Source of the DNA: an uncultured Gammaproteobacteria bacterium
Lineage (GTDB): Bacteria > Pseudomonadota > Gammaproteobacteria > GCA-002705445 > GCA-002716945
Length of the DNA: 45,312 nucleotides
Direction of reading: 5' to 3'
Assembly: GCA_902628335.1 (NCBI GenBank)
Contig: CACOMO010000001.1
Span: 1 to 45,312 of the forward strand
The position numbers were made by a program, and so were the translations under genes. The notes beneath the pieces are model-generated. The model made no database searches. It was not told the DNA's origin and saw only the letters and a program-made list of their open reading frames with translations. The stretch's first letter is position 1. Every line of letters starts with the position of its first letter. Shown here piece by piece: positions 36,268 to 45,312 of the stretch.

Positions 36268-36320
36268 ACGAATATATTGTGCATATTTATCATACACTTA
36301 TCTAGATATCTTAAAAAATT

Positions 36321-36654
36321 TGAGAGTTAGCCTATAAGCCGGGTTCTGTCTTGTGTGACTATTCATCTAGGATCACCGTCACCGGTGACCTCAAGCAGCC
36401 TACCATATAGTTAGTCAAGGACGTGACATATCCTATAAATTTGCCTTGCTCCTGACGGGGTTTGCTTTGACCAGAATCAGTTACCTGTTTCTGCGGTGAG
36501 CTCTTACCTCACCTTTTCACCCTTACTGAGATAATCAGCGGTTATTTTCTGCAGCACTTTCCGTAGATTCGCATCTCCCAGGTGTTACCTGGCGTCATTG
36601 TCCATGGAGCCCGGACTTTCCTCTGTATAACAGCAGTCACAAAGCTAACTCTCA
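36321..36654 (-). ncRNA. rnpB: RNase P RNA (type A)
   Basis: Catalytic RNA that matures tRNA 5' ends. Read on the minus strand, GAGGAAAGTCCGGGCTCC forms the 5' half of the core, AGGTAAGAGCTCACCGC-type sequence and GGAGCAAGG the specificity part, and CCTAGATGAATAGTC plus ACAGAACCCGGCTTAT the conserved 3' end. The two ends (36644-36654 and 36321-36331) are perfectly complementary over 11 bases and make helix P1, which sets the borders at about 334 nucleotides. AATTTTTT follows the 3' end without a local hairpin. A position just upstream of mraZ is known from Pseudomonas and relatives. Confidence 0.97.
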
Positions 36655-38493: not shown

Positions 38494-39099
38494 ATGAATC
38501 TAGATCAACATAACTTAAGTACACTCATACTTGCAGGAGGCAAAGGGTCAAGGATGAAGGGTGTTGATAAAGGATTGATCAATATTGGTGGGAAATATAT
38601 CATTGAGTATTTGGTAAGTATTTCGTCTATGTACTCTTCTGGTGTTTTTGTAAACGCAAATAGAAATCACGAGGAATACAAAAAATTAAACTGTAAAATT
38701 ATAAAAGATATTCTTGAGGGCTATCAAGGACCGCTTTCAGGCATTTATTCTGGGCTTTTACAAATAAAAACAAATTATATGATTACATTACCATGCGATG
38801 GTCCATTTTTATCAGATGAATATTTCAAAAGAATGCTGGAAAAGCCTCTTAATGATAAAATAAGATGTGCGTTCTCGAACAATAGACTTCAACCTGTGTA
38901 TGCATTAATACCAAAGAAATGTGTCAATACGCTCAAGTTATTTCTTGAGGGCGGCGGGAGAAAAATAGATAAATGGTATAAACAATATGGTTATGAGGTC
39001 ATTGATTTTTCTGATATGGAGGAAATGTTTATAAATGTGAATACAGAAGAAGAATTGTTACAATATAAAAATGAAATTAAGAAGAGATTATTAGGATGA
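38494..39099 (+). CDS. mobA: Molybdenum cofactor guanylyltransferase MobA
   Basis: MobA joins GMP to molybdopterin to form the bis-MGD cofactor of DMSO-reductase-family enzymes such as formate dehydrogenase. The 201 residues start with the nucleotide motif LAGGKGSRMKGVDKGLINI and contain LEGYQGPLSGIYSGL, LPCDGPFLSDEYF and NNRLQPVYALI. It is the first gene of the rightward C1-cofactor string and overlaps the flavoprotein gene by four bases (ATGA). The linkage suggests a Mo-dependent C1 enzyme, probably formate dehydrogenase, encoded elsewhere. No clear ribosome binding site precedes the ATG. Confidence 0.9.
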   Translation: MNLDQHNLSTLILAGGKGSRMKGVDKGLINIGGKYIIEYLVSISSMYSSGVFVNANRNHEEYKKLNCKIIKDILEGYQGPLSGIYSGLLQIKTNYMITLPCDGPFLSDEYFKRMLEKPLNDKIRCAFSNNRLQPVYALIPKKCVNTLKLFLEGGGRKIDKWYKQYGYEVIDFSDMEEMFINVNTEEELLQYKNEIKKRLLG

Positions 39100-39626
39100 C
39101 AAAACCTGAAAGGATAGCTTGGGGCATCACTGGTTCTGGCCATTATCTTAAAGAATCTATGCAGATAATTGACAAATTATCGAATGTAGATCTTTTTTTA
39201 AGCAAGGCTGGAGAGGAGGTTCTCAAATGGTATGACTATGATTTAAAAGAGTATAAGAATAAAGGTGTTAAGATCTTTAAAGATGTCACTGCTAGCTCAG
39301 CTCCAGTTAGTATGCTCTATGATGGGGTTTATAGATGTCTTATTGTGTCACCTGCTACATCTAACACAGTTGCTCAAATGGCATTTGGATTTTCTGATAA
39401 TTTAATTACTAATATGTTTGCACAAGCTGGTAAGTGCAGAATTCCATCTATAGTCTTTGCATGTGACACTGAGCCAACTGTTATAACTCAGGCACCAAAA
39501 AAAATGGTAACACTATATCCAAGAAAAATAGAATTAGATAATTTCAAAAAACTAAAATCTTTTGACGATGTAAGCGTAGTAGATAATGTCGATGATCTCA
39601 AAAAAGCAATAGAGAAAATAAAATGA
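39096..39626 (+). CDS. Flavoprotein, probable dihydromethanopterin reductase (DmrB/archaeoflavoprotein-like)
   Basis: A 176-residue flavoprotein of the PF02441 fold. IAWGITGSGHYLKESM near the start is the FMN phosphate loop, LIVSPATSNTVAQMAFGFSDNLITNMFAQA is the conserved substrate-flavin region, and FACDTEPTVITQAPKKMVTLYPRKIELDN matches the archaeoflavoprotein group. Homologues in methylotrophs and Burkholderia, and DmrB of Methanosarcina, reduce dihydromethanopterin to tetrahydromethanopterin, the last step of making that C1 carrier. The gene is coupled on both sides by ATGA overlaps. The exact reaction is inferred from family and context. Confidence 0.75.
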   Translation: MTKPERIAWGITGSGHYLKESMQIIDKLSNVDLFLSKAGEEVLKWYDYDLKEYKNKGVKIFKDVTASSAPVSMLYDGVYRCLIVSPATSNTVAQMAFGFSDNLITNMFAQAGKCRIPSIVFACDTEPTVITQAPKKMVTLYPRKIELDNFKKLKSFDDVSVVDNVDDLKKAIEKIK

Positions 39627-41032
39627 CTAAAAATCACATTCTTTTTATTACAGGAAAATTGGCAGAAAATAATCTATCTAAGGTGCTAAATAGAATCGAG
39701 AATAAAGAGTTCACTTATGAAATAAGGTGTGTAAACATTAATGTAGCTGCCTTAATGACAACAGAACTTATTGCCAAGAAGATGGGTCCTATTAATGGAT
39801 TTGATAAAATAATTATTCCGGGTAAAGCAAGAGGTGATATCAAAGAGTTAGAGAAGAATCTTGGTATACCGACTGAAAGAGGCCCAGAGGAATTGAAAGA
39901 TCTACCAGCCATGTTTGGTGGCGAAAGTCTAAAATATGATCTAACACAATATGAGGTTCATATTTTCGCTGAAATAACAGATGCGCCAATGCTTGATATA
40001 GATAGTATTTTGGATCTAGCGCGAGAATATCAAAGAAATGGTGCAGAGGTCATCGATATAGGTTGCTTACCTAATCAAAATTTCCCACATCTTACTGAGA
40101 CTATTCAAGAACTAAAACGTAACAAATTTTATGTCAGTATTGACTCACATAAGAGAGAAGAGATTATGGAGGGTTCAAAAGCAGGTGCTGACTATGTACT
40201 AAGTTTAAAGAAAGATAATTTTGATATTCTTGATTCAATTAGTTCGACACCTGTAATAATTCCCAATTCGACTGATGATTTTGATAGTCTTGTTTGGTGC
40301 ATAGAGAAATGTAAAGCCGATAATAGAAATTTTATTGCCGATCCTATTCTCGATCCTCTTAATTTTGGGTTCACTGATTCTCTCATGAGATATCATAAAC
40401 TACGTCAAATGTATCCAGATATAAACATTATGATGGGAACGGGCAACATAACTGAATTAACCCATGCTGATACAAGTGGTATTACCGCAATATTGATGGG
40501 AATCATTACAGAACTCAAAGTTAATCATATTTTAACTGCTCAGGTTAGTAATCATTGTAGAACAGTAATTAGAGAGACGGATATAGCAAGACGCATCATG
40601 CATGCAGCTGCAAAAAATAATGTTACACCTAAACATATTGATAATGGCCTTCTTGTGAATCATGCTGCTGAGCTGAATAAAGTTACATCTGAAGAAATTG
40701 AAGAATTGTATAAAAAAGTAAAGGATAAAAACTACCGAATAATACTTTCTAAAGACGGTATAAACCTTTTCAATAAATCAGGGAGAATCGTGGCTGATGA
40801 TCCTTATGATTTCTATGACTTCATTGATGTAGAAGGTGATATTGGTCATGCTTACTACTTGGGTATAGAATTAGCAAGAGCACAAATAGCATTTCAATTG
40901 GGGAAAGAATATGAACAGGATGAGGAGCTAGAATGGGGTTGCTTACTCGACAAAGAAACAGATGACAAAATGGAATTTAAAGAGACCAGATCTACATACA
41001 AAAAGAAAAATAAAAACAATGAAAATCCATGA
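39623..41032 (+). CDS. Dihydropteroate-synthase-related protein of the tetrahydromethanopterin pathway
   Basis: A 469-residue protein of the family annotated as dihydropteroate-synthase-related (TIGR00284 / DUF6513), found in methanogens and methylotrophs. The N-terminal region (about 1-110) is specific to the family (ILFITGKLAENNLSKVL; IIPGKARGDIKELE). The barrel domain (about 115-310) has the pterin-site blocks NGAEVIDIGCLPN, FYVSIDSHKREEI, NFIADPILDPLNFGF and MMGTGNITELTHADTSG. In Methylobacterium a homologue is needed for C1 metabolism. It probably handles pterin-arylamine coupling in tetrahydromethanopterin synthesis, but its reaction is not settled. Overlaps the DUF447 gene by 14 bases. 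Confidence 0.85.
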   Translation: MTKNHILFITGKLAENNLSKVLNRIENKEFTYEIRCVNINVAALMTTELIAKKMGPINGFDKIIIPGKARGDIKELEKNLGIPTERGPEELKDLPAMFGGESLKYDLTQYEVHIFAEITDAPMLDIDSILDLAREYQRNGAEVIDIGCLPNQNFPHLTETIQELKRNKFYVSIDSHKREEIMEGSKAGADYVLSLKKDNFDILDSISSTPVIIPNSTDDFDSLVWCIEKCKADNRNFIADPILDPLNFGFTDSLMRYHKLRQMYPDINIMMGTGNITELTHADTSGITAILMGIITELKVNHILTAQVSNHCRTVIRETDIARRIMHAAAKNNVTPKHIDNGLLVNHAAELNKVTSEEIEELYKKVKDKNYRIILSKDGINLFNKSGRIVADDPYDFYDFIDVEGDIGHAYYLGIELARAQIAFQLGKEYEQDEELEWGCLLDKETDDKMEFKETRSTYKKKNKNNENP

Positions 41033-41588
41033 AGTAATTATAACAAGCTGTGACAAAGCTAATAATCATCATATTGCACCGATGGGAATAAATATTATAG
41101 GTGATGAGGTCATTGTCAGGCCTTTCAAGCCCTCTAAAACTCTTGATAATATCAGAGAAACGAAATCTGCAGTTGTTAATTTTATCGATGATGTTCGTGT
41201 CTTTGCAGGTATAGTGACTGGCGCAAAGAGAAAATGGGGCCTTAAAAAAATCAGGGGTGATCAAGTGATGAGGCTAGATGATACAAATTCATATTTTTTA
41301 CTTCGTGTAAATTCAGAAAATGACGATCAAGTAAGACCAAAGATAACATGTGATATCCTTGATAAGAAGATGTATAGACCATTTCTTGGTTTTAATCGTG
41401 CACAGTTCTCTGTTATTGAAGCAGCAGTACTTATAAGTAGATTAGGAATGATACCAATGGATAAGATTTATAAAGAATTAGAATACTTAAAAATTGGTTT
41501 AGATAAAACTGCTGGCAAAGTTGAACTTGAAGCCTGGTCTTGGATAGAAGCAAAATTACAAAATTTTGAAATTGAAAATGACTCCTAG
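41019..41588 (+). CDS. DUF447 family protein of the C1-cofactor cluster
   Basis: A 189-residue protein of the DUF447 family, which folds as an FMN-binding split barrel and is restricted to methanogens and bacteria with tetrahydromethanopterin. The start at 41019 is chosen because MKIHEVIITSCDKANNHHIAPMGI is the family's beginning; an earlier in-frame ATG adds 19 basic residues inside the previous gene. Other features are RPFKPSKTLDNIRETKSAVVNF and the C-terminal helix RLGMIPMDKIYKELEYLKIGLDKTAGKVELEAW. Genetic work in Methylobacterium ties this group to methanopterin synthesis; the reaction is unknown. Confidence 0.85.
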   Translation: MKIHEVIITSCDKANNHHIAPMGINIIGDEVIVRPFKPSKTLDNIRETKSAVVNFIDDVRVFAGIVTGAKRKWGLKKIRGDQVMRLDDTNSYFLLRVNSENDDQVRPKITCDILDKKMYRPFLGFNRAQFSVIEAAVLISRLGMIPMDKIYKELEYLKIGLDKTAGKVELEAWSWIEAKLQNFEIENDS

Positions 41589-42264
41589 AACACTTGTTAG
41601 CATAAAAGATACCTATGAGGCTAATGTAATTAGAGATCTAGAAATCGACATAATTGACCTAAAAGAAGTATCTAATCCACCTATGGGTTTTGTCGGTCTA
41701 GAGAAAATTAAATTAATCAAAAATATTCTTCCAAATAGAGTAATTAGTGTAACAATGGGAAATAACATAAATCCTTATGAAAAAAAAATAATCAATTTAG
41801 CTAATGAAGTGGCGGCGTCTGGAGTTGATTACATGAAGGTCGGTTTATTTTCAGAGAACGAGATTAAAAACCACGGAAAATTCTTGAGAGAATTAAATTT
41901 GAAAAACTGTAGACCAGTCTGTGTTATTTTAGTCGATAATTCAGTGGATATTAATTATCTAGATTCTCTTCATGAAATCGGTTACAAGGGTGTTATGTTA
42001 GACACCATAAATAAAAAACAATCACGTGTTTTTGATCTACTATCAGAGAAAGAATGTATCTCATTTGTCAATCAATCTAAAAAACTTGGGATGACTAGTG
42101 GTATTGCTGGATCTTTGACATTGGATGATTTATCAAAAATCATGAGAATCAATCCGGATTTTATCGGATTCCGTGGACAACTTTGTAAGGAAAAATCAAA
42201 TAGATTTAATTTAGATAGAGATGCTGTGATTGAGGTGTTAAGAGCTACTCATCTTTCGTCGTAA
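41578..42264 (+). CDS. mfnB: (5-formylfuran-3-yl)methyl phosphate synthase MfnB
   Basis: MfnB (DUF556) condenses two glyceraldehyde-3-phosphates into the furan ring of methanofuran. The start at 41578 (MTPRTLVSIKD) fits the family; a TTG four codons earlier is rejected. The 228 residues form a TIM barrel. IIDLKEVSNPPMGFVGL contains lysine 29, matching the Schiff-base lysine of the archaeal enzyme; VDYMKVGLF and GVMLDTINKKQSRVFDLL carry further conserved lysines, and MTSGIAGSLTLDDL is the phosphate-binding end. It overlaps DUF447 by 11 bases and the convergent pabB by 27. It shows that methanofuran, not only methanopterin, is made. Confidence 0.9.
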   Translation: MTPRTLVSIKDTYEANVIRDLEIDIIDLKEVSNPPMGFVGLEKIKLIKNILPNRVISVTMGNNINPYEKKIINLANEVAASGVDYMKVGLFSENEIKNHGKFLRELNLKNCRPVCVILVDNSVDINYLDSLHEIGYKGVMLDTINKKQSRVFDLLSEKECISFVNQSKKLGMTSGIAGSLTLDDLSKIMRINPDFIGFRGQLCKEKSNRFNLDRDAVIEVLRATHLSS

Positions 42265-43596
42265 CGAATTTAATAATGGCTTAATTTTATCAAGTGTCTC
42301 AGAGTATTCTGATTTAACTTCTGAATCAAATGTTATTCCTCCTCCTCCCCAAAAATAGAGGTTAGAATCTACAGATAAAACTGTGCGTATAGCAATGTTG
42401 AAATCGCATTTGTAATTTCTACTGATGTATCCTATTGCTCCACAATATATGCTTCGATTATTCATCTCTAACTCATTTATAATTTGCATAGCTCTTATCT
42501 TCGGTGCACCTGTAATTGAACCACCTGGGAAACAATCACGTAGAAGTTTAAAAATATCATTTTCCTTGGAGAGCTTGCCCTTTACAGTACTTACTAAATG
42601 GTGCACATTAGCAAAAGTTTCAATCTTAAATAAATCACTTACTTCAACAGAACCAAAATCACAGTTTTTACCAAAATCATTTCTTAACAAATCTACTATC
42701 ATGAGATTTTCTGCTTTTTCTTTATCAGAATGTTTTAATTCATCTATCATTTTTAAATTATCTTTTTTGTCAGATAAAACTGGTCTAGTGCCTTTTATAG
42801 GTTTTGTCTCAACTACTTTACCATCTTGACTTATAAATCTCTCTGGAGAAAAACACATGATTTTGGCAAAAGGATAATTTAAATATGCAGAATATGGTGC
42901 TCCATAACATTGAGATAATTTCTTATAAATACCCCAGCTACTCCCCTCATAGTCGAGGGAAAATCTTTGCGAAAAATTAATTTGATAACAATCACCCTCT
43001 GTAATGTAGGATTTTATTCTTTTGAATTTCTTGGCATACTCTTCATAAGATAAATTAGATTTATAATCAGAATTAATTTTATAAGGGTATTTTTTCATGT
43101 CCTCTTTAAAAGATTCTAACTTTTCTCTTATTTTTTGAATTAATTCTGTATTATTTTGGAAGATTAATATTGTCTCTTTTTTATCATGATTAATAATCAA
43201 TGCCCAATCGTAAATACCAAAAGCTACATAAGGAATATCAAAGTCATCTGTTTTTTGATTAATGCTCTCATATAAATTTCCTTGATCATATGAGAGAAAG
43301 CCTATTGCACCACCACTAAAAGGTAAGCTATCTTCGTGCTCAAAACTACCTTTCATATAATCATGTAACAAGCTTATTGGGTCAGATGAAACAACGTTTT
43401 GGGATTGATGATCTTCTACGATAGAATTTTTCCCTCTTCCATGAATTTTAATAACAGGATCAGAAGTCATTATATCAAATCTTTGACAAGAAAACTTTTT
43501 ATGATTGCTATCGAGTAATACAGACCATTCTCTATTCTCAATTAGAGAAAAAATATCTTTTGGATTTTCAAAATACTTAAATTTAATTTTGTGCAA
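42238..43596 (-). CDS. pabB: Aminodeoxychorismate synthase component I (PabB)
   Basis: PabB turns chorismate plus ammonia into aminodeoxychorismate for p-aminobenzoate. The 452 residues hold the component I N-terminal domain and the chorismate-binding domain (from about residue 185: YITEGDCYQINFSQRF). ETKPIKGTRP carries the lysine that marks PabB; anthranilate synthase has alanine there. CFPGGSITGAPKIRAMQII and IYCGAIGYIS complete the site. No amidotransferase domain is fused and no pabA is in the window. Its place among methanopterin and methanofuran genes, overlapping the MfnF-like gene by 14 bases, suggests it feeds the arylamine part of tetrahydromethanopterin as well as folate. Confidence 0.93.
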   Translation of the reverse strand: MHKIKFKYFENPKDIFSLIENREWSVLLDSNHKKFSCQRFDIMTSDPVIKIHGRGKNSIVEDHQSQNVVSSDPISLLHDYMKGSFEHEDSLPFSGGAIGFLSYDQGNLYESINQKTDDFDIPYVAFGIYDWALIINHDKKETILIFQNNTELIQKIREKLESFKEDMKKYPYKINSDYKSNLSYEEYAKKFKRIKSYITEGDCYQINFSQRFSLDYEGSSWGIYKKLSQCYGAPYSAYLNYPFAKIMCFSPERFISQDGKVVETKPIKGTRPVLSDKKDNLKMIDELKHSDKEKAENLMIVDLLRNDFGKNCDFGSVEVSDLFKIETFANVHHLVSTVKGKLSKENDIFKLLRDCFPGGSITGAPKIRAMQIINELEMNNRSIYCGAIGYISRNYKCDFNIAIRTVLSVDSNLYFWGGGGITFDSEVKSEYSETLDKIKPLLNSLRRKMSSS

Positions 43597-44629
43597 AAAA
43601 GCTCTCCTCTTTAAGCATATTTGCTAGGAAATATGCTGGAGCGATATGACAAGGGCTAATTTTAGTTCTTGATACACTCACTCTCATAATTGAAGATAGG
43701 TCAAGGTATTCTTTATGGTTTTGAATACAGATATCCTTGATAATTTCCGCTCCAATTCCTACACCTATGATTTTAACATTTTTAATAGATAAAAAATTTT
43801 TTTTAATATGATAATCTATCGTCTTATTTAAAGTAGCTGAATGTAAATCTACAATTTCAGAAGCAGCTAAGACTAACGATTTCTTGTATTTAATCTTGTA
43901 GTCTAAACCAAAGTTTCTAGCAAACCTGACCAAACATGATTTTATATCTCTATCTTTATCATCACATGTTGTACAATAGTAATGATTCTTCGGTAGTTTT
44001 TTTGTTATCCTATAAATATCAGCTAAAGATGAAAAATTTTCTGGTATTATCTGCACCCTTGTTTTGTTAATTTGAAAAGATCTTTTAAAAATATATGGCG
44101 GTGTCCTCAGACAACCAGTATATAATAACTCTTTTGAGCTAAGACCTGAGAAATCGCTTACTCTCTTATTTATGATATTAGAATTCTTTACTAATATGAA
44201 ATCTGTAGTAGTCGAACCTAAATCTACTATAATCGCATTTTTTACCTTTTTACTCATGTATTTAGCAATCACATGCCAATTTGATGATGCAATATTCTGG
44301 GTAGATAAATTATTTTTTAAACTTATAACCCCCTTGTTTTGAGTATAGACATAAGAATTAGCAAATCTTTTAAAATAACCAAGAATTTTTCTTACACCTT
44401 CAACCCTATTCTCAAAAGAGTCACACATCTCACCTGACATAGTAATTATATTATGAACTCTGCCCTGTATTGAATAATGTTCGATTATTGTATCAATTAT
44501 CTGATCGATATTTTCTTCTCTCCATAATTCACAGATTTTTACTGAGCATGTAATTTTCGTATCAGTGATTGCACAATATTTAAGATGTGCGCCACCTATA
44601 TCCCAGCCGATAAAAACTTCTTTTTTCAT
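43583..44629 (-). CDS. MfnF-like hydantoinase/oxoprolinase-family protein (H4MPT-linked C1 pathway)
   Basis: A 348-residue ASKHA-fold protein of the group known as probable tetrahydromethanopterin-linked C1 transfer pathway protein (TIGR03123). The N-terminal phosphate loop is GWDIGGAHLKYC (D10), the second IIVDLGSTTTDFILV (D136). A cysteine pair YCTTC lies near residue 220. The archaeal homologue MfnF joins the aminomethylfuran phosphate to glutamyl-tyramine in methanofuran synthesis. The bacterial member is probably equivalent, given MfnB and an MfnD-like ligase beside it. It overlaps pabB by 14 bases and the ATP-grasp gene by four. Confidence 0.85.
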   Translation of the reverse strand: MKKEVFIGWDIGGAHLKYCAITDTKITCSVKICELWREENIDQIIDTIIEHYSIQGRVHNIITMSGEMCDSFENRVEGVRKILGYFKRFANSYVYTQNKGVISLKNNLSTQNIASSNWHVIAKYMSKKVKNAIIVDLGSTTTDFILVKNSNIINKRVSDFSGLSSKELLYTGCLRTPPYIFKRSFQINKTRVQIIPENFSSLADIYRITKKLPKNHYYCTTCDDKDRDIKSCLVRFARNFGLDYKIKYKKSLVLAASEIVDLHSATLNKTIDYHIKKNFLSIKNVKIIGVGIGAEIIKDICIQNHKEYLDLSSIMRVSVSRTKISPCHIAPAYFLANMLKEESFFAQN

Positions 44630-45312
44630 GATAGATGTATTCTCCTTGATCGCGGATTTATATACATGGATTCCATAAATTTATTTATTTGAGATAGATT
44701 TATACCAAGAGTGCTAGAGATACCAGTGAAAGATGTAGTAAGTCTTGGATTAATTTCTACAACTAAAATTCCTTTTCCAGTAATTATAATATCAATACCA
44801 ATATATCCATAGAGTCCAGGTAAGTTATTGTGAATTTTTTTAATTAAGATATAGATGTCAAGAAAATAATTATTCTTAATATTTACTTTTAAACTTCTGA
44901 GTCTAAGGTTGTTTTTTTTGACTATGATATCTTGTTCATTTAGTGTAAGTAGTTTAAATTTTGTTTTTGTAAAATATACGCACAGACTATAATCATCACC
45001 TTTTATATATGGCTGATATATCATTTTTTTACTATCTATAACATGATGTTTTGCAATTTTTTTCACGTGTGAACAGCCAATTCCATACCTGTGTTTCTCA
45101 ATAATAATCTTGTTAGAAATAAAATTGATTTGATTAGATAAATAGGAGGGTATACTAGGTATATCTGTCTTTTCACAAAAGGTTGAAAATTTATACTTAT
45201 CAGAGAGCAACTTTATAGTCTCAGGGGAAGATAGAAGCATTTTAATTTTTTCTTGTGAGAGAAATTTACTATAAGCATATAGCTCCATATTTTGTTCAGG
45301 AAGTACTGGAAG
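44626..45312 (-). CDS. ATP-grasp ligase, MfnD-like (tyramine--glutamate ligase type), N-terminus off the window
   Basis: ATP-grasp protein with KIIIEKHRYGIGCSHVKKI (lysine and flexible loop), MIYQPYIKGDDYSLCVYF, and the metal-site strand YIGIDIIITGKGILVVEINPRLTTSFTGI. The reading frame stays open to the right edge with eight codons before the first ATG (45288), and the first visible part is already inside the fold, so the true start lies beyond the window. In archaea MfnD, an ATP-grasp enzyme, joins glutamate to tyramine for methanofuran, and methylotrophs carry a homologue next to the MfnF-like gene. The lysine- and isoleucine-rich sequence is divergent, so substrate is inferred from context. 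Confidence 0.75.
   Translation of the reverse strand, partial: LPVLPEQNMELYAYSKFLSQEKIKMLLSSPETIKLLSDKYKFSTFCEKTDIPSIPSYLSNQINFISNKIIIEKHRYGIGCSHVKKIAKHHVIDSKKMIYQPYIKGDDYSLCVYFTKTKFKLLTLNEQDIIVKKNNLRLRSLKVNIKNNYFLDIYILIKKIHNNLPGLYGYIGIDIIITGKGILVVEINPRLTTSFTGISSTLGINLSQINKFMESMYINPRSRRIHLS

Follow-up and report, generated by a model that had tools for sequence, protein, structure and literature searches.

Which one-carbon (C1) compound feeds the archaeal-type cofactor genes at the end of a 45,312-nucleotide stretch of DNA from an uncultured gammaproteobacterium? This stretch (the window) is the first part of contig CACOMO010000001.1 (G000:C1:1-45312, G000 being the source genome; all positions are C1 coordinates, which run on past the window end). 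Its cluster for tetrahydromethanopterin (H4MPT) and methanofuran biosynthesis, at 38494-45312, is one end of an island of ~39 kb (C1:38494-77810), the rest of which lies beyond the window. Taken alone the cofactor cluster is ordinary; its context is a lead deserving a bench test. The C1 source is probably methylated sulfur rather than methanol, namely methanethiol and probably dimethylsulfide (DMS) too, because the methanethiol-oxidizing MtoX and the genes of a hydroxylase block adjoin the H4MPT pathway. On balance we think it likely that the island makes this streamlined marine gammaproteobacterium a methylated-sulfur methylotroph, with an AlkB-like hydroxylase as the DMS entry enzyme. We lean, though only slightly, to the wider proposal that an unrecognised diiron DMS monooxygenase of the AlkB/XylM type with a QxxHH histidine box is the entry enzyme in the whole family of these bacteria, is common to other DMS degraders and occurs in marine T4-like phages as an auxiliary metabolic gene. 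What the analysis shows directly is gene content, conservation, co-occurrence, viral carriage, motifs and predicted fold.

Beyond the cofactor genes of the window the island comprises:

45571-46263, plus strand, HisA/F-like gene
46291-46812, minus strand, fae, 979 bp beyond the window end
46855-47727, minus strand, CitG-like orf9
47737-48645, minus strand, mptN-like gene
48642-49610, minus strand, mch
49603-50715, minus strand, second ATP-grasp gene
50678-51568, minus strand, mtdB
51586-52539, minus strand, mptG
52629-57216, plus strand, fhcBADC
57199-57732, minus strand, TlpA-like gene
57743-59746, minus strand, SCO1-MauG fusion
59890-61254, minus strand, mtoX
61358-62857, minus strand, FadL-like porin
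63045-63317, minus strand, 90-residue membrane protein
63452-64540, minus strand, reductase (2Fe-2S/FAD, NADH)
64680-65330, minus strand, GST-like gene
65687-66919, minus strand, AlkB-like hydroxylase
67113-67778, plus strand, SCO1
67775-68143, minus strand, PCD-like gene
68489-70711, plus strand, FdsGB
70712-73471, plus strand, FdsA
76941-77810, plus strand, fdhD

The set for H4MPT-linked formaldehyde oxidation (Fae, methylene-H4MPT dehydrogenase, Mch and FhcABCD) is thus complete on one contig; FhcB scores 176, under its NCBIfam cut-off of 328, but sits in the fhcBADC order, and a second, more distant fae is found on contig C4 of the same genome. A preliminary description of the window had proposed formaldehyde oxidation through H4MPT and methanofuran, holding that a genome lacking fae, mch and fhc would speak against it; fae, mtdB, mch and fhcABCD all being present on the same contig, the proposal stands, and we regard this pathway as practically certain in this organism. 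The same clustered genes, together with those for cofactor biosynthesis, characterize the known bacterial systems of this kind (Methylobacterium extorquens, Methylophaga and the TMED127 'methylotrophy island', PMC12542740), likewise found in streamlined marine genomes. Unlike them, the present island has no xoxF/mxaF, couples mtoX to an AlkB-like hydroxylase and belongs to a gammaproteobacterium of about 1 Mb, TMED127/Methylaequorales being an XoxF-using alphaproteobacterial order.

Two further features of the island may be recorded. The segment with the mto genes and hydroxylase (57743-67057) has a GC fraction of 0.385, as against 0.32 for the H4MPT segment. At its N-terminus FdsGB carries an in-frame fusion with an integrase-type arm DNA-binding region, giving 740 residues versus 558-560 in relatives, possibly through an insertion or an assembly join.

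The preliminary description had also expected a methanol or methylamine dehydrogenase. For methanol this expectation is not supported: among 25 genomes of the family, two of them 99-100% complete, none encodes a pyrroloquinoline quinone-dependent XoxF/MxaF over the family cut-off, on which ground methanol was rejected as the probable C1 source, and the adjoining genes point instead to methanethiol and probably DMS. Assimilation through the ribulose monophosphate pathway was also rejected, there being no hexulose-phosphate synthase over cut-off. MtoX scores 715.1 bits against NF052453 (curated equivalog cut-off 650), and its H94, H95, H147 and H430, which align with histidines of 2ece, fit the published copper-ligand pattern of HH, H, H (PMC5739008). 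Its partners, the SCO1-MauG maturation gene and the TlpA-like gene, are present. We are confident in predicting methanethiol as a C1 source via MtoX. The mto clusters of Methylophaga thiooxydans (PMC6548844) and Hyphomicrobium sp. VS (PMC5739008) have the same succession of mtoX, SCO1/MauG and a TlpA-like gene; SCO1 and MauG form a single fused gene, as they do in M. thiooxydans, and the gene order matches that of the DMS-grown organism (PMC6548844). What sets the present island apart from those clusters is the direct joining of mto genes to H4MPT, formate dehydrogenase and the AlkB-like hydroxylase/reductase/porin block, and the lack of a methanol dehydrogenase. As to DmoA and DmdA, the known enzymes that produce methanethiol, luciferase-family proteins (PF00296), the family of DmoA, were not found in 24 of the 25 family genomes, G000 included. 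A DmdA-like protein was not found in G000, G002, G006 or G007, each of which gave a single weak GCV_T match; G005 has extra GCV_T matches, for which we suspect contamination.

The AlkB-like hydroxylase is a diiron membrane protein of the AlkB/XylM type, labelled FA_desaturase by Pfam and matching no NCBIfam or PHROG family. By sequence the closest solved proteins are the alkane monooxygenases 8sbb and 8f6t, and a fold search with its AlphaFold model (pLDDT 84.7) returns both and no other significant match. It retains the first two histidine boxes (HELSH and HVYNHH) and the NYxEHYG motif (as NYLEHYG). Its third box is GRQADHH (QxxHH), versus RHSDHH (HxxHH) in AlkB, and GRQ[AG]DHH holds throughout the subfamily. 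QxxHH is also found in front-end desaturases; therefore the altered box is compatible with activity and marks a distinct subfamily. With AlkB (8f6t, 8sbb) and XylM/XylA/XylN it shares the fold, the two boxes, the NYxEHYG motif and the kind of partners, a BenC/XylA-like reductase and a FadL-like porin; it differs from them in its identity of about 25-35%, in the third box and in the lack of a neighbouring alcohol or aldehyde dehydrogenase. The last feature fits a product that would split by itself into methanethiol and formaldehyde. The reading as an ordinary AlkB was rejected on identity, third box and absence of an NCBIfam match. Along with the 90-residue protein, MtoX and the porin, the hydroxylase is among the most conserved proteins of the island.

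The distribution of this protein was followed in 369 genomes sampled across the class, families of which are designated f1, f3, f40, f45, f122, f135 and f164 below. Close hydroxylases (at least 50% identity) occur in 13 of these genomes, from 7 families, and MtoX in all 13 (11 over the cut-off, two truncated at contig ends) versus 22 of the 356 others. The association has a Fisher p of 4.8e-15, or 2.4e-11 without counting the two truncated MtoX, values that are inflated by relatedness, the independent unit being nearer the 7 families. Fae is likewise present in 13 of 13. More distant AlkBs (about 30-35% identity) have no evident link to MtoX (3 of 17, p=0.08), and among 398 genomes sampled from the phylum the sole hydroxylase match at E <= 1e-60 was G000 itself. 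Hydroxylase and mtoX are physically linked in f1 genomes of three genera, with the hydroxylase block inserted inside the segment running from MtoX to formate dehydrogenase, and in the unrelated family f122 fae, porin, reductase, hydroxylase and mtoX span about 13 kb. In f3 a hydroxylase copy adjoins the flavoprotein-DHPS-like-DUF447-MfnB genes, and in f40 about 25 kb separate fae from mtoX. In f45 and f135 mtoX lies inside an H4MPT/formate dehydrogenase segment with no hydroxylase adjacent, so that the MtoX module needs no neighbouring hydroxylase. This would suit an island for H4MPT-linked methanethiol oxidation only, fed by environmental methanethiol or methanethiol from methionine, with the AlkB-like enzyme an accessory acting, for instance, on another methylated or alkylated compound; we hold this to be unlikely, given that every close-hydroxylase genome has both MtoX and Fae and that in f1 the hydroxylase block interrupts the MtoX-formate dehydrogenase segment.

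In f3 genomes (L082:2-7135, L083) mtoX lies beside a sox-like cluster, with genes resembling SQR and persulfide dioxygenase downstream when judged by eye; these could plausibly provide a sulfide sink.

Several points weigh against the hydroxylase as a DMS enzyme. Neither co-occurrence nor conservation names its substrate, and the function of the subfamily is a prediction from sequence and gene context. Its QxxHH box departs from the HxxHH of AlkB, so the chemistry may differ. Family f1 has a hydroxylase paralogue (76% identity) in a housekeeping context, and the copies of f40, f45 and f164 adjoin a MerR-type regulator (plus FabA in f40 and f45) instead of mtoX, a setting that would suit a role in lipid metabolism in those families. 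These genes next to fabA and a MerR/B12 regulator, the Pfam name, the third box and the published interpretation of an induced Methylophaga desaturase as serving lipid homeostasis (PMC6548844) would all accord with a membrane-lipid desaturase or hydroxylase that guards membranes against the H2O2 and sulfide that MtoX generates, and with which phages adjust lipids. We nevertheless judge such a lipid enzyme distinctly improbable: the closest solved relatives are alkane monooxygenases sharing the NYxEHYG motif, the protein is one of the most conserved of the island, and the adjacent reductase and FadL-like porin resemble the TOL xylMA-xylN set. A further point is that the search for C1 routes besides methylated sulfur covered methanol. 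H4MPT pathways detoxify formaldehyde in some bacteria, and the pathway might mainly do so here, or serve another C1 substrate such as methylamines, with the sulfur link secondary; this seems to us very improbable, as no methanol dehydrogenase exceeds the cut-off, the island is kept whole in genomes of ~1 Mb, and in several families mtoX is next to H4MPT genes.

The second hydroxylase copy, conserved in f1, is at L041:9325-10518 (contig C2 of G000; 76% identity) and L060:9143-10336 (73%). Related hydroxylases are divergent from a MerR regulator at L042, L046, L051, L052, L053 and L054, some of them next to fabA or a photolyase; where tested (L042) the regulator has a B12-binding domain, which suggests light or cobalamin control of the MerR-adjacent hydroxylases.

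Returning to the island as a methylated-sulfur system, we infer a DMS substrate, an order of steps and a viral role as follows. The FadL-like porin would admit a small hydrophobic methyl-sulfur compound; the hydroxylase, supplied with NADH electrons through the 2Fe-2S/FAD reductase, would hydroxylate one methyl group of DMS, and the resulting hemithioacetal would split spontaneously into methanethiol and formaldehyde. After maturation by SCO1-MauG, MtoX in the periplasm would then convert methanethiol to formaldehyde, reduced sulfur species and H2O2. Fae would couple the formaldehyde to H4MPT, from where MtdB, Mch and FhcABCD would carry it to formate and FdsABG to CO2. Marine T4-like phages carrying the hydroxylase alone would presumably use it to sustain the energy flow of the host during infection, the role also proposed for pmoC and amoC phages. 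That the hydroxylase is a DMS monooxygenase we consider reasonably probable from its context. The net reaction proposed for it, from DMS to methanethiol plus formaldehyde, is that of DmoA of Hyphomicrobium sulfonivorans, which is a soluble flavin enzyme of the luciferase family.

When M. thiooxydans grows on DMS, both of its mtoX copies and sco1-mauG are strongly induced, and so are genes for a 'fatty acid desaturase', a fatty-acid porin and a flavin reductase; the study left the first DMS enzyme unassigned but considered a monooxygenase possible (PMC6548844). Membership of the induced desaturase in the present hydroxylase subfamily should be read as a lead and not as a finding. An AlkB-type DMS enzyme is not listed in a 2026 review (PMC13360808), nor did we find one in the open-access literature. 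The hydroxylase is a specific, testable candidate for the DMS entry enzyme; its genomic association is strong, and the lineage seems to depend on it. If correct, the proposal could identify a long-missing DMS-degrading enzyme, one also present in ocean viruses, and address a step left open in the model marine degrader Methylophaga (PMC6548844).

The viral copies came from a scan of IMG/VR with the hydroxylase, which gave about 200 matching stretches, 80 of them kept (L085-L164). In 66 of the 80, T4-like hallmarks flank the gene (major head protein, prohead protease, tail tube, UvsY, UvsW, UvsX or a gp41-like helicase), and two sites recur, the gp23-gp19 interval and the vicinity of the gp41/UvsX genes; L131:4001-5227 and L151:3995-5062 are examples. 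In the tree, viral copies of 85-95% identity are intermingled with the f1 copy that is linked to mto, and not with the f1 paralogue, and a second viral clade (61-66% identity) is sister to f1. The viral copies look to be under purifying selection, dN/dS being 0.03-0.14 when viral copies are paired with one another and 0.02-0.05 when they are paired with host copies, for which dS is near-saturated; the Q box is kept in all but one, which is cut by a contig end. MtoX and the reductase are in none of the 80 stretches, and separate viral scans recovered neither these nor the 90-residue protein, absences that concern close homologues, exact-peptide seeding recovering only fairly close relatives. 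Cellular contamination was considered and is unlikely for the main groups, given the flanking phage hallmarks and that no scan turned up MtoX or the reductase; four loci without hallmarks (L154-L157) cluster with cellular copies and are possibly of cellular origin. The copies thus lie beside hallmark genes, have a close homologue in cells and show signs of selection, as expected of a viral auxiliary gene, and we consider it highly likely that the hydroxylase is a functional one, whatever its substrate. No close copy was found in the published isolate phages or plasmids searched. The pmoC/amoC phages (PMC7674155) likewise encode a single component of the entry oxygenase of their host and lack the others; here the enzyme family is another, and the carriers are marine T4-like phages with insertions at gp23-gp19 or near gp41. 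Viral carriage means that infection might influence DMS loss, and if so could alter marine DMS turnover. Should the substrate prove wrong, an oxygenase on many marine phage contigs without a PHROG family is still a real gap.

A Fae relative (60-63% identity) was also seen in six viral contigs (L165-L170).

The part of the island within the window consists of the following genes:

38494-39099, plus strand, mobA, molybdopterin guanylyltransferase (TIGR02665, 171.5 bits, cut-off 151.85; position conserved in relatives)
39096-39626, plus strand, AfpA/dihydromethanopterin-reductase-like flavoprotein (PF02441, 1.2e-22; TIGR02699, 3.8e-31)
39623-41032, plus strand, DUF6513/dihydropteroate-synthase-like (DHPS-like) protein (PF20123, 8e-27; TIGR00284, 4.5e-60)
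about 41019-41588, plus strand, DUF447 protein (PF04289, 5.9e-23; PF20766, 4.5e-11)
about 41578-42264, plus strand, MfnB, (5-formylfuran-3-yl)methyl phosphate synthase (4HFCP synthase; PF04476, 1e-42)
42238-43596, minus strand, PabB, aminodeoxychorismate synthase component I, p-aminobenzoate for H4MPT (TIGR00553, 363 bits, cut-off 328)
43583-44629, minus strand, MfnF-like/H4MPT-linked C1 transfer protein (TIGR03123, 6e-68; NF040623, 5.5e-40)
44626-45567, window part to 45312, minus strand, MfnD-like tyramine-glutamate ligase, ATP-grasp (PF02655, 4e-27; NF040722, 2.2e-22)

The DUF447 reading frame is open from 40962, homologues suggesting the start at 41019; that of MfnB has a TTG opening at 41566 and an ATG at 41578; and the MfnD-like gene is cut by the window end, its full frame reaching 45567. 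The seven genes named in the preliminary description were all recovered in the order given there, to which mobA is added as an eighth; its product plausibly serves the molybdenum enzymes FhcB and FdsA. Homologues for H4MPT and methanofuran biosynthesis (MptG, MptN, MfnB, MfnD and MfnF) are present, most of them under the archaeal equivalog cut-offs. MfnB, MfnF, the DHPS-like protein and MfnD score under NCBIfam cut-offs that appear to be tuned to archaea; most of these exceed the Pfam gathering scores, the DHPS-like protein through its DUF6513 domain. Since the gene order is conserved in other genera of the same family, at 35-73% protein identity, the cluster is real and not a product of chance. 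The earlier impression of compact, AT-rich coding in a streamlined genome also holds: the GC fraction is 0.32, non-overlapping open reading frames cover 95% with a median gap of -4 bp, the assembly is 910 kb at 86% completeness, and the whole pathway is kept across a family of small, dense genomes of ~1 Mb. Upstream of the cluster, a class A RNase P RNA lies on the minus strand at 36319-36652 of the window, well over its Rfam gathering score.

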